A stretch of 5,526 nucleotides of DNA from Candidatus Latescibacterota bacterium (GTDB lineage: Bacteria; JAAXHH01; JABIQT01): assembly GCA_018667995.1 (NCBI GenBank), contig JABIQT010000199.1:1-5526 (forward strand), read 5' to 3'. Positions 1-5,455 of the stretch are shown here, piece after piece. Position numbers and translations under genes: made by a program. Numbering within the stretch: the first letter of the stretch is position 1; each line of letters starts with the position of its first letter. The notes under the pieces were generated by a model, which did not search any database, was not told the DNA's origin, and worked only from the letters and a program-made list of their open reading frames with translations.

Positions 1-352
1 AGATTCCCAGGACTATCAATCCACCGAACACTATGGCAGCTGTACCGATAACCACCATTGTTGACAACCACACTACAGTTTGACCATAGAGACGAAGTGT
101 ACCCAATGTCAACTTGCCCCCGAGTAGGAATCCGACCATGATCAAGGCAAATACGGAGACGCTGGAGAACCACTGCTCGCCGAATTTAGGCAATAGATCA
201 AGAACCGAAGGACCAATGATACAGCCAAAGACCAGGAGGAGCGTCACACGGGGAAGTGTGGTCCGCCTACCGATCTCATCGGTTGCTACTCCGACGATCA
301 GAATAGCGCCGAGTGTGATGAGTGTGATTGGTAGATCGGCTGACTGGTGCAT
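1..352 (-). CDS. Cation/proton antiporter (CPA/Kef-type), N-terminal part, cut by window edge
   Basis: Reading the minus strand from the ATG at 352 gives 117 residues with no stop before the window edge, so only the N-terminus is present. It is strongly hydrophobic, with membrane segments at about residues 8-25, 34-52, 62-80 and 93-116. The stretch RTTLPRVTLLLVFGCIIGPS (30-49) matches the usual 'LP.V.GyLl.GiliGPs' signature that opens Na+/H+ and K+/H+ exchangers (Na_H_Exchanger family), which swap monovalent cations for protons across the inner membrane. The start is supported by GGAAGG (358-363 on the plus strand) five bases upstream. The ion-binding Asp residues would lie beyond the edge, so ion specificity cannot be called. 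It is divergent from the stress operon at 779. The family call is fairly sure; the subfamily is not. Confidence 0.8.
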   Translation of the reverse strand, partial: MHQSADLPITLITLGAILIVGVATDEIGRRTTLPRVTLLLVFGCIIGPSVLDLLPKFGEQWFSSVSVFALIMVGFLLGGKLTLGTLRLYGQTVVWLSTMVVIGTAAIVFGGLIVLGI

Positions 353-473
353 AGCAACCTTCCGATCGGACTTGATATTGAGGCAATAACCTTCTCTATA
401 TCCATTGGAGCTGCAAACCATGTGCCATGTCTTATGGAGCTAATCCCACGATATTCACCCCCAATAAGGGTAA

Positions 474-1286: not shown

Positions 1287-1934
1287 ATGCTAAGGGGAGA
1301 TACGGTCAAGCAGGAAGAGCGTGTTCAAAACGTTATAACAATTTCTCGCCAATTTGGGGCTGGAGGCCACACCGTAGCAGCGCTTCTTGCCAAGAGACTC
1401 GGTGAGACGTGGCAGATCCGTGATAAGGATATCATACAGCAGTTGGCCGAGAGTGCACAGGTCAGAAGCAGAATGGTGGAAGCGCTGGACGAGCGCACCC
1501 AGTCGTGGATCCAGGAAATGGTTCGTGTTGTCCTCAAGGAGCAGGTATTGGAGCCCATGGGCTATCGCCGTCATTTGGCGATTGTACTTCTGACGATTGC
1601 ACAGCAGGGCCCCCAGATCATCGTTGGACGAGGTGCGAATTACATTCTAAAGGATGCGCTGAATGTACGCCTTGAGGCGTCCATGAAATTTCGGTCAGAG
1701 GTGATAATGCGGCGTGATGGCATCTCACAGGAAAAGGCTATTGCCCTCGCCGAAAGAGTGGATCGGGAAAGGGCCTCGTTTGCCAGGACCATGTTCAATC
1801 GTGACGTGAATGATGCGAGCGACTACGATATCGTCTTACAGACCGATACCCTTGGTTTCGCAGGGACCACAACTGTCATAGAGTCTGCCTGGACCGAAAT
1901 GAAGAAGCTGCCTCTCGTTTCCGGAGAGGATTGA
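1287..1934 (+). CDS. Cytidylate-kinase-like protein, first and most divergent of three
   Basis: This 215-residue soluble protein belongs to the cytidylate-kinase-like P-loop family (Cytidylate_kin2 type), not to housekeeping Cmk. After about 15 extra N-terminal residues it has ITISRQFGAGGHTVA (17-31) at the P-loop position, with no Walker A lysine. Then come DKDII (46-50), the strand and loop QIIVGRGANYIL (110-121), the core strand VRLEA (127-131), and a LID-like arginine-rich helix with DRERASFAR (159-167). It ends with DYDIVLQTDTLGF (179-191). It lacks the W-A-D-P and TINTG motifs shared by the two paralogues in this window, and its middle region is shorter. Family members are assumed to bind nucleotides, but CMP phosphorylation is not shown for them. 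The stop lies three bases before the next gene, so the two are surely cotranscribed. The family call is confident; the substrate is unknown. Confidence 0.85.
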   Translation: MLRGDTVKQEERVQNVITISRQFGAGGHTVAALLAKRLGETWQIRDKDIIQQLAESAQVRSRMVEALDERTQSWIQEMVRVVLKEQVLEPMGYRRHLAIVLLTIAQQGPQIIVGRGANYILKDALNVRLEASMKFRSEVIMRRDGISQEKAIALAERVDRERASFARTMFNRDVNDASDYDIVLQTDTLGFAGTTTVIESAWTEMKKLPLVSGED

Positions 1935-1937
1935 GCC

Positions 1938-2636
1938 ATGGCTGTAATCACCGTCTCTCGAGAACTGGGCAGCAACGGCAAAGCCATCGCTGCGCAAGTG
2001 GCCGAGGAACTGGGATACGTGTGTTTTGACAAGACACTAATCCTGGAACTGTCACGACAGGCCGAGGTCTCGGAATTGGAAGTGTCGCGGTACGACGAAA
2101 AGCTCGTGAACCCGATCAGACAGTGGCTTAAAGAGATGATCGTACAACCGTGGGATACACTTGTGAATCCACCGGTATCCATGAGTTTTGCCGACGCGGC
2201 AGGCCTAAGCCTGTTGATCCCAGATGAAGAGAATGCCTTGGATTCTGCAGCGTATCACGAGTTTTTGGAGAGGCTCTTGATTCGACTTTGGCGCAGAGAT
2301 AATGTGGTTATCGTGGGCCGAGGAGCTCAGCGCGTGCTGGCTGGCCGAACCCGCACGCTTCACGTCAGGATTGTCGCGTCGGAAGAGTTGCGCTCTGACC
2401 GAATAATGAAGCGTGAAAACCTCGACAGAAACGACAGTATGACATTAATTCGTCGGACGGACAATGCCAGAGCAAAGTATTTCAGTCGTCGATATCATAT
2501 GGACTGGGCGGATCCGACACTGTACAATATGACCATCAATACGGGAATGACACGAGAGGAAGAGACCTGTCGTATTATCTGCGATGCAACACGGCGCATG
2601 ATAGCGTCCGCCAGACATCACGAGGAGGAATCATGA
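1938..2636 (+). CDS. Cytidylate-kinase-like protein, second of three
   Basis: This 232-residue soluble protein opens directly with the P-loop strand: VITVSRELGSNGKAIA (3-18). Unlike its neighbours it has a Lys (15) after the last Gly, but it still lacks the GxxxxGK spacing and the Ser/Thr of Walker A. Other family marks are F-D-K (30-32), VVIVGRGAQ (123-131), VRIVA (143-147), the LID-like DNARAKYFSRRY (175-186), and the end motif DWADP with YNMTINTG (189-203). Residues of about 60-105 form an acidic, loop-rich insert where an NMP-binding region would be. It is cotranscribed with the genes on both sides: GAGAGG (1924-1929) precedes the start by eight bases, and the stop overlaps the cytochrome start as ATGA. 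It is closer to the minus-strand paralogue at 3871-4548 than to its upstream neighbour. The nucleotide substrate is unknown. Confidence 0.85.
   Translation: MAVITVSRELGSNGKAIAAQVAEELGYVCFDKTLILELSRQAEVSELEVSRYDEKLVNPIRQWLKEMIVQPWDTLVNPPVSMSFADAAGLSLLIPDEENALDSAAYHEFLERLLIRLWRRDNVVIVGRGAQRVLAGRTRTLHVRIVASEELRSDRIMKRENLDRNDSMTLIRRTDNARAKYFSRRYHMDWADPTLYNMTINTGMTREEETCRIICDATRRMIASARHHEEES
2623..2628 (+). promoter_or_regulatory. Strong ribosome binding site of the cytochrome gene
   Basis: AGGAGG, the strongest Shine-Dalgarno match in the plus-strand operon, sits four bases before the ATG at 2633, inside the end of the preceding kinase-like gene. Confidence 0.65.
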
Positions 2637-3787
2637 GCCACCGAGTTTGGAAACGATCTGTAGTTGGCGCCTTGACGTTAGGCATTCTATTTATGGTAGC
2701 AGGAGAGATCAGCGCGCAGCGAGCCAATCCTGGCGACTCGGTGCCGACCATGCGTTCTCTGATGCGTGCGCTGGCCAGCGCATTTCCCATGAGTTTGCAT
2801 CAGGAGGATTTCAGGCATCCCGCCAACCGTCGAGCGATCCTGCTGGCGCTGGAGGTGCTTCAGGAGAATTCCGAGGCACTTGAGTCTCATGGCAGTGACG
2901 ATAGCTCCAGTTTCCACTTTCTACGGAAAACGCTGGCAAGGGATACCCGCTCCGCGGCTGATAGCTACCGTGAGGGGAGGTTTGAAGTGGCCAGGGTTTT
3001 TCTCCACCAGATGACAGAAAACTGTTTTGCCTGCCATACCCGTCTGCCCGGCCAGGCCAATAAGACATTTGGTAAACAGTTCATGGAAGACATGGAACTG
3101 GAGTCGCTAACACTCGACAATCGTGCCAGAATTGAAGTAATCACAAGACGATTTGACGATGCACTCACAACCTATGAGGCCATGCTCCAGCTACCTGTCT
3201 GGGAAGAGCCCCTTCTGGGATTTGATGGTGCTTTTGAAAACTACCTTAAGGTATCCATGCGTGTCAGGAATGACTACGAGCATCCCGTAGACGTCTTGAC
3301 CTCATTTGGTGCACGAAATGACATTCCACGCTATATGACTCAGCCTGTTCGGGACTGGGTCGTTGCCCTCAATAAACTTCAAAGTACCAACTATCCCGAA
3401 GATAAGCTTGAACATGCACGGAGGCTTATTCAGGAGGGGCAGACTCGAAAGTTATTCCCGGGAGACCGGCAAGGCACTGTTCATTTTGTAGCGGCGTCCA
3501 GCGTTCTTCACCAGTTCGTGCAGTCGGCGAACGCTACGAAGGACGAATTGGCAGAAGCGTATTTCCTTCTTGGAGTAGTAGAGTCGCATATCTCCTCTAC
3601 GTCGTGGGTATCAGAGACCGAGTTCTTTCTCGAGAATTCAATCCGGCTTAACCCAACGGCAACCTTTGCGCCACGGGCCTATGCCGTGCTGGAAGAGTTC
3701 GTACTGATGCAGCACGGAGCTCTTCCAGCAATACCTCCGGAGATTCTGGATTATCTTGAAGAGCTAAAGGGTTTGATCGATAGGTAG
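2633..3787 (+). CDS. Exported monohaem c-type cytochrome with C-terminal helical repeats
   Basis: This 384-residue protein begins with a Sec signal peptide: basic RVWKR, a hydrophobic core at 9-23, and probable cleavage after ISA (28). It is therefore periplasmic, with no lipobox. One haem-binding CFACH motif lies at residues 131-135. Before it come about 100 residues of predicted helix ending in FEVARVFLHQMTENCFACHTRLPG. CXXCH at the end of a helical bundle resembles class II cytochromes (c' or c-556 type), which is my inference for the fold. If correct, Met40, Met44 or Met53 could be the distal ligand. Residues from about 165 to 380 are helical and TPR-like, for example 304-341 (AYFLLGVVE followed by FLENSIRLNP), suggesting protein binding. 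It is the last gene of the operon and overlaps its upstream neighbour by four bases. I know no named homologue; an electron-transfer or redox-sensing role is inferred. Confidence 0.8.
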   Translation: MSHRVWKRSVVGALTLGILFMVAGEISAQRANPGDSVPTMRSLMRALASAFPMSLHQEDFRHPANRRAILLALEVLQENSEALESHGSDDSSSFHFLRKTLARDTRSAADSYREGRFEVARVFLHQMTENCFACHTRLPGQANKTFGKQFMEDMELESLTLDNRARIEVITRRFDDALTTYEAMLQLPVWEEPLLGFDGAFENYLKVSMRVRNDYEHPVDVLTSFGARNDIPRYMTQPVRDWVVALNKLQSTNYPEDKLEHARRLIQEGQTRKLFPGDRQGTVHFVAASSVLHQFVQSANATKDELAEAYFLLGVVESHISSTSWVSETEFFLENSIRLNPTATFAPRAYAVLEEFVLMQHGALPAIPPEILDYLEELKGLIDR

Positions 3788-3817
3788 GACGAGCTCGAAT
3801 TGTATCGCAGGACCTGC

Positions 3818-3858
3818 ATTCAAGGGCCGATCTAGTAACACGCGATCGGCCCTTGAAT
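3818..3858. terminator. Probable bidirectional terminator between convergent operons
   Basis: ATTCAAGGGCCGATC (3818-3832) is repeated as an exact reverse complement at 3844-3858, with an 11-base loop. It forms a perfect 15-bp stem that can fold in transcripts from either strand. It lies 30 bases after the cytochrome stop and 12 bases after the minus-strand kinase stop, as expected for a shared terminator. There is only a short TTT at 3860-3862 on the plus side and no T-run on the minus side, so it may be a weak intrinsic terminator or an mRNA-stabilising 3' hairpin. Confidence 0.7.
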
Positions 3859-3870
3859 CGTTTAGGAGGG

Positions 3871-4548
3871 TTAGACGGGTACGGCCGCAAGGACCATCTC
3901 TGATGCCCTTTTGATGGAACAGAGGCCAGTATTGATGGTCAGATGATACATGGCTGGGTCGGCCCAGTTCATGCCAAAGTGCTCATGGAGGTACTCGGCA
4001 CGTGCCCTGTCTGATACCAGGATACCCTTGCGGGCTTCCTCGAGTCCGATTTTTTCACGCGCCATCACCCTCTCACAACGGATTTCCAGTGGAGCAATAA
4101 TGCGAACGTGAAGCACATCCGTTTCATTCTTGAGAATGGCCTGGCCACCACGGCCTACGATTATGGCATCTCCGCGATGATGAATCCGTCGGATCAGTTG
4201 CCTCAATACGTCGAGATACTCGATGCGATCTAGGATATGCTCTCCCTGGACCGGTGGCGTAGGCACAAGAGTCGGCATGGTCTGTGTCGGCCAGAAAACG
4301 GGCGCAGCCTCCGCACTAAAGACAGGATCCGTTCCCATAAACACATCCCGTAGCCAGTCACCGATCCCAGGTTTTCTGGGTTCGTGTTCATCAAATCTCT
4401 CCACAGCCGCCTCGGAGACCCCCAGTTCACGCGCGACGTCAATAATCAACGACTTATCGACTACGCTATAGCTGAGCTTTTCTGCCGCTTGCTTGGCGAT
4501 GGATTGACCTCCGCTCCCTTTTTCACGAGATAACGTAATTACCGACAT
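3871..4548 (-). CDS. Cytidylate-kinase-like protein, third of three
   Basis: This 225-residue soluble protein carries VITLSREKGSGGQSIA (3-18) at the P-loop, with no Walker A lysine. Next come VVDKSLI (29-35), the helix ELGVSEAAVERFDE, DAIIVGRGGQAIL (127-139), VRIIA (148-152), a LID-like DRARAEYLHEHFG (180-192), and NWADP with YHLTINTG (194-208). A Pro-rich insert at about 72-103 (PTQTMPTLVPTPPV) replaces the acidic insert of the second paralogue. The start at 4548 is chosen because AAAGGCGG (4555-4562) lies six bases upstream and the protein then begins exactly like the second paralogue. A longer in-frame start at 4629 would overlap the YwiC-like gene and add a non-family tail. It is the second gene of the minus-strand operon, 40 bases after the YwiC-like gene. 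Nucleotide binding is expected; the substrate is unknown. Confidence 0.85.
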   Translation of the reverse strand: MSVITLSREKGSGGQSIAKQAAEKLSYSVVDKSLIIDVARELGVSEAAVERFDEHEPRKPGIGDWLRDVFMGTDPVFSAEAAPVFWPTQTMPTLVPTPPVQGEHILDRIEYLDVLRQLIRRIHHRGDAIIVGRGGQAILKNETDVLHVRIIAPLEIRCERVMAREKIGLEEARKGILVSDRARAEYLHEHFGMNWADPAMYHLTINTGLCSIKRASEMVLAAVPV

Positions 4549-4588: not shown

Positions 4589-5455
4589 TCAAGCCAGCGA
4601 TCGGATCGCGGCCTGTGCAAAGAGGGCAAACCAGACCGAATATACGGCCTCCCTTATACCGACTTTCGCGAGTGCAGGTAGCTCTGTGGTCAGTGTCGCC
4701 CAACCGTGGAAACTCCTTACCACGACGGGAACGAATGCCAATAACAGAAATACATTGGTCCAGCTGGGTGTCCATAGAATCAGTATTGTGGCTGATAAAA
4801 GTAATACGGTGTGGTAGGCGCCGTTGATCGCACCTATCTTCAGTTTTCTCTGGCTCCCAAGTACTCCTGGCACGCGCGCACCTGTCAATAGCATATTTAC
4901 GAAGACCACGCCGCTGATGAAATAGATGACAGCGACCGCATAAATGATCCAGGCGATTGGAGATAGCTCCCTGTGAATAATCAAATGCGAGGCAGGAGCC
5001 GTGAGTGCAAGTGCCGCCACTCCCATCACTTCGCCGGTGATCGATCGATCGAAGCGCCCACGAGATCGCCGTCCGATCAGGATAGCCACCAGATAAATGG
5101 AAAACCCAATTGTTCCTATCAATATGATCTCATGGTACCCGAATATGATAATAAGTGTTGTTACGCCAATGGCGAGGGCGATAGCGTAGATTGCGAGCCA
5201 GAAGAGGTGCCCCGGACGCCTGCGTGGTTTTGACGCCAATCGAAAGGCGTTCTGCCCCATGAAGGCGCTCAAAGCCACGAGTAACAGGGCCAGGGCAGGC
5301 TGCAAAGGTATGGCGTCAGTGGCCATGAATGGAATTGATAGAGGAATGAGGAGCATAAACCAGGCTCCGTGTTCATGGGGAATGGGCGGGCGACCGATAT
5401 GCCAGTGACTTACGTGCTGAGTTCGGTCCGGTGAATCTGTTGCAAGCGTCGCCAT
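4589..5455 (-). CDS. YwiC-like integral membrane protein
   Basis: This 288-residue inner-membrane protein has about eight or nine hydrophobic segments (roughly 32-47, 51-68, 84-104, 108-127, 143-160, 168-190, 212-229, 233-247 and 268-285). The family mark is the N-terminal PHEHGAWFMLLIPL (26-39), the HEHGAW signature of YwiC-like proteins. These are named after a Bacillus subtilis gene near the nitrate respiration region and have no established biochemical role. Other conserved-looking points are RSITGE (137-142), in the loop before a membrane segment, and KVGIRE (264-269) near the end; the latter recalls the tail of UbiA-like proteins, a resemblance only. The basic loop KPRRRPGH (76-83) follows the second segment. 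The start has GGGAGG (5465-5470) nine bases upstream. It leads an operon with a cytidylate-kinase-like gene 40 bases downstream. Confidence 0.8.
   Translation of the reverse strand: MATLATDSPDRTQHVSHWHIGRPPIPHEHGAWFMLLIPLSIPFMATDAIPLQPALALLLVALSAFMGQNAFRLASKPRRRPGHLFWLAIYAIALAIGVTTLIIIFGYHEIILIGTIGFSIYLVAILIGRRSRGRFDRSITGEVMGVAALALTAPASHLIIHRELSPIAWIIYAVAVIYFISGVVFVNMLLTGARVPGVLGSQRKLKIGAINGAYHTVLLLSATILILWTPSWTNVFLLLAFVPVVVRSFHGWATLTTELPALAKVGIREAVYSVWFALFAQAAIRSLA

Follow-up and report, generated by a model that had tools for sequence, protein, structure and literature searches.

The 5,526 bp stretch of DNA analysed here, referred to as the window, spans the complete contig C815 of a draft genome of Candidatus Latescibacterota (6.06 Mb in 1165 contigs, 85% complete, 4.2% contamination). 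It carries two operons that converge on each other. Operon 1, on the plus strand, begins with a gene for a universal stress protein (Usp, positions 779–1267; PF00582, 111 bits, E=1e-31), followed by CK1 (1287–1934; 215 aa), CK2 (1938–2636; 232 aa) and CYT (2633–3787), which encodes an exported monohaem protein bearing a single CFACH motif. The gaps are 19, 3 and −4 nt, the CYT start overlapping the CK2 stop by 4 nt. Operon 2, on the minus strand, consists of a gene for a YwiC-like membrane protein (4589–5455; PF14256, 63.5 bits) and, after a 40-nt gap, CK3 (3871–4548; 225 aa). A gene for a CPA2-type sodium/proton antiporter runs into the contig edge, so that only its N-terminal part is present (2–421, minus strand); the match of this part to PF00999, 23.7 bits over 140 aa, is slightly below the cut-off of 26.2 bits, and the truncated gene probably lies outside both operons.

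CK1, CK2 and CK3 are intact genes, each starting with ATG behind a plausible Shine-Dalgarno sequence and closed by a stop codon; plausible ribosome-binding sites are found upstream of all six operon genes. The 83-nt stretch between the operons folds into a strong hairpin (3812–3866; −31.8 kcal/mol), which is likely a two-way terminator of both. The hairpin is absent from the output of a simple terminator scan, and Rfam and tRNA scans of the window gave no matches. The initial annotation described three genes of one family, two in tandem on the plus strand and one on the minus strand, in two convergent operons; its coordinates are correct, and the gene spacing and the intervening hairpin bear out the operons. 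The neighbours are also as it listed them, i.e., Usp, YwiC, an edge-truncated antiporter and an exported CXXCH protein that falls outside Pfam.

All three CK proteins belong to PF13189 (Cytidylate_kin2), with CK1, CK2 and CK3 scoring 137, 153 and 152 bits, respectively, against a curated cut-off of 28 bits. They are rightly termed diverged, as CK2 and CK3 share 37% identity and CK1 shares ∼30% with each of the other two. CK1 represents a short and CK2 and CK3 a long subfamily. None of the three matches the canonical Cmk profile PF02224, and with the archaeal-type profile cyt_kin_arch (TIGR02173) they reach 42–55 bits vs a cut-off of 102 bits. The signature residues of PF13189 (T5, R8, G14, D31, G127-R128-G129, R144, R152, D175, R178 and Y196 in CK2 numbering) are retained in all three, and also in CK4, a fourth PF13189 gene found on contig C369 of the same genome.

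A structure model of CK2 (pLDDT 71, core ∼90) finds its best matches in the solved PF13189 members 3hdt (Z 20.5) and 3fdi (Z 19.4). True CMP kinases come next, with Z mostly 14–17.7, and other small-molecule kinases reach at most 13.3. The window proteins agree with PF13189, the family of 3hdt and 3fdi, in sequence, fold and signature residues. They resemble Cmk (PF02224; TIGR02173) in fold and in their weak TIGR02173 matches, but the classical Walker A motif is missing. The two solved structures are titled only 'putative kinase' and 'uncharacterized protein', no PF13189 protein with an assayed substrate appears in the hit lists or the literature search, and literature searches for PF13189, for cytidylate kinase-like proteins and for YwiC found nothing about function.

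The initial annotation took the lack of a proper Walker A motif as a sign that the three genes are not the housekeeping Cmk. Classical GK[S/T], however, is conserved nowhere in PF13189; a degenerate P-loop is a family-wide trait, shared by CK4. Because of this, and because the phylum itself mostly lacks canonical Cmk (see below), the missing motif is not distinctive. The P-loop argument consequently falls, and what stands of the claim is that the genes differ from the ordinary cmk gene, as extra copies situated in real operons. The missing motif, together with the fusion of other PF13189 proteins to BON and response-regulator domains, might also suggest that CK1–CK3 have lost catalysis and serve as nucleotide-sensing pseudokinases in the regulation of some other process. 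We regard this as a serious alternative but an unlikely one, since the degenerate loop extends to CK4 and CK1–CK3 retain the remaining conserved residues.

Conclusions on paralogy come from a single tree of 89 PF13189 proteins. CK2 and CK3 are sisters (support 99/90), and the pair is sister to a clade formed by CK4 and its orthologues in the phylum (96/83). CK1 is placed in a separate, widespread subfamily (99/93), and its nearest relative is an orthologue with 61% identity in a genome of the same order, G015. The trio is not a single gene in triplicate: two members, CK2 and CK3, are paralogues, and CK1 comes from another subfamily. The terminal branches of CK2 and CK3 are ∼1.0 vs 0.39 for CK4, and because these branches are long, the function of CK2 and CK3 may have shifted. 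Compared with PF13189 genes elsewhere, the window differs in having two subfamilies together, long-branched paralogues, and Usp, cytochrome and YwiC genes as neighbours. A search of genome contigs detected one Poribacteria locus with a CK2 relative (39% identity). Plasmid searches gave matches of only 24–30% for CK1 and CK2 and none for CYT or YwiC, and no CK1 relative was found among viral contigs.

A comparison with CK4 would be meaningless if the window, a contig of only 5.5 kb in a draft bin of 1165 contigs with 4.2% contamination, had been misbinned from another organism. This is highly improbable. The GC content of the window is 0.519 vs about 0.50–0.55 for the genome; its tetranucleotide correlation of 0.80 lies within the range of the genome's contigs (0.77–0.94) and far above that of loci from other genomes; and CK2 and CK3 branch with the phylum's own clade, while the nearest relative of CK1 is in the same order.

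The gene that members of the phylum share is the CK4 orthologue (57–61% identity). Of the phylum's 16 genomes, 15 have PF13189 and one has PF02224, which is found in none of the nine high-quality ones. CK4 orthologues adjoin MTAP/PNP-like, accD, purF and ndk-like genes; these names, and ResB and CcsA below, were assigned from sequence by eye, and a portion were checked against Pfam. The lack of Cmk in 15 of 16 genomes and the conservation of the CK4 type beside nucleotide genes suggest that CK4-type PF13189 is probably the housekeeping CMP kinase that replaces Cmk in this phylum, a reading based on absence from draft genomes and on gene order, and that the window copies are extras. Alternatively, an enzyme of the adenylate kinase family could do the CMP kinase job in the phylum.

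PF13189 is common among bacteria (105 of the 384 genomes sampled). Outside the phylum it is usually an addition to PF02224, which is also present in 82 of 90 PF13189-positive genomes, vs 1 of 15 within the phylum (p=5e-11, with genomes that are not independent of one another). A general mutual exclusion of the two families was considered and rejected: outside the phylum, PF02224 is lacking in 8/90 PF13189-positive vs 34/278 PF13189-negative genomes (p=0.45). Family f59 is a possible second candidate case of Cmk replacement; all three of its PF13189-positive genomes (G155, G298 and G429, small and 99% complete) have high-scoring PF13189 genes and lack PF02224. A phylum with apparent replacement of Cmk offers a clean test ground for CMP kinase activity of PF13189.

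The reading we favour, and consider fairly probable, is that CK1–CK3 represent a lineage-specific cluster of accessory PF13189 NMP-kinase-like paralogues with a putative substrate. CK2 and CK3 would be sister paralogues that branch beside CK4, the phylum's resident PF13189 gene, which would stand in for canonical Cmk; CK1 would derive from the separate, widespread subfamily. The three proteins presumably remain phosphotransferases acting between ATP and a nucleoside monophosphate, with CMP/dCMP or a close analogue as the likeliest substrate, and may use the family's own glycine-rich loop in place of a classical Walker A. Co-transcription with Usp, the cytochrome and YwiC might make them conditionally expressed copies.

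The initial annotation proposed instead that Usp, the three CK proteins, the cytochrome and YwiC act together as a dedicated nucleotide-binding module for stress or respiration. The tight operon spacing, with the 4-nt overlap of CK2 and CYT, speaks for this. Also, some PF13189 genes elsewhere lie beside redox genes, single cases being L156 and L164, with multihaem cytochromes and ResB/CcsA look-alikes by sequence, L112 (see below), and Anaerolinea thermolimosa, where a PF13189 gene is found beside a cytochrome cd1/haem-copper cluster (PMC8756737). The neighbourhood survey that had been named as a test able to refute the proposal was performed on 90 loci, i.e., 13 from the phylum (the CK4 contig included), 17 from a search of 84 Poribacteria genomes, and 60 from across Bacteria. 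Neighbourhood genes were called mechanically, some of the calls being wrong in G+C-rich loci, and Usp was detected with one query sequence. Relatives of Usp, YwiC and CYT were found at none of 77 PF13189 loci of other genomes and at none of the phylum's own loci. YwiC occurs in 31 of the 384 genomes, together with PF13189 in nine, and the two are linked in one of these nine, the window's own. CYT relatives are present in five other genomes, none with a strong PF13189, and their neighbours vary. A rough motif test for Fe-S and haem proteins showed no enrichment of redox neighbours (7/297 of the nearest vs 6/495 of the far genes, p=0.25). Linkage of Usp, CK, cytochrome and YwiC genes in independent genomes was not encountered in this survey, a sampling in which rare conservation could have escaped. 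The genes are thus largely scattered independently, a concerted module appears quite unlikely, and the overall interpretation in the initial annotation is mostly not supported, being partly supported in the points noted above. The genes around CK1–CK3 give the impression of operons put together locally, not of a conserved machine, and the window mainly illustrates extra copies that end up in unrelated operons.

CYT itself has no Pfam or NCBIfam match. It is predicted to be all-helical, with a poor single-sequence model (pLDDT 44). Relatives with one C-x-A-C-H motif are found in genomes G156, G367, G394 and G255. CYT and the proteins at L186, L188, L189 and L190 make up a small family, as yet unannotated, of exported monohaem proteins that display one C-x-A-C-H and a long helical C-terminal part; the window member shares about 19–43% identity with the others.

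A CPA2-type antiporter adjoins PF13189 at other loci as well, three in Poribacteria (L072:5730–7721, L073:8736–10727 and L079:5523–7520) and one in G015 (L027:13913–14788); two of the four antiporters were checked against Pfam.

Pairs or trios of PF13189 genes are found in five genomes outside the phylum, three of them near sulfur genes, and in the tree they branch apart from the window CKs. These loci, L112 to L116, resemble the window in that two or three PF13189 genes are grouped within a few kb, in some cases next to sulfur genes. They are unlike it in subfamily, in having related forms with a BON domain, and in being without Usp or YwiC. At L112 (G323:C98) the clustered genes are beside ATP sulfurylase, Hdr-like genes and TauE, at L115 (G105:C58) beside TauE and a CobB-like gene, and at L113 (G123:C84) beside SulP. 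It is tempting, although improbable on present evidence, to view PF13189 as having replaced an essential CMP kinase throughout this phylum, and perhaps in f59, with extra copies repeatedly joining stress, cytochrome or sulfur operons and thereby coupling nucleotide state to energy metabolism.

A C-terminal BON domain is present in some PF13189 proteins, and a response-regulator receiver domain in one (L121, L131, L134 and L171); such fusions suggest that part of the family has regulatory roles. Members of a third group (L127:6772–7740, L136:5946–6875 and L149:5555–6562) are extended at the C-terminus by a sequence similar to FTPDFYLPDFDLYIELTT. The extension gave no Pfam match in the two proteins tested; by eye, its sequence resembles a PD-(D/E)XK nuclease-like domain.
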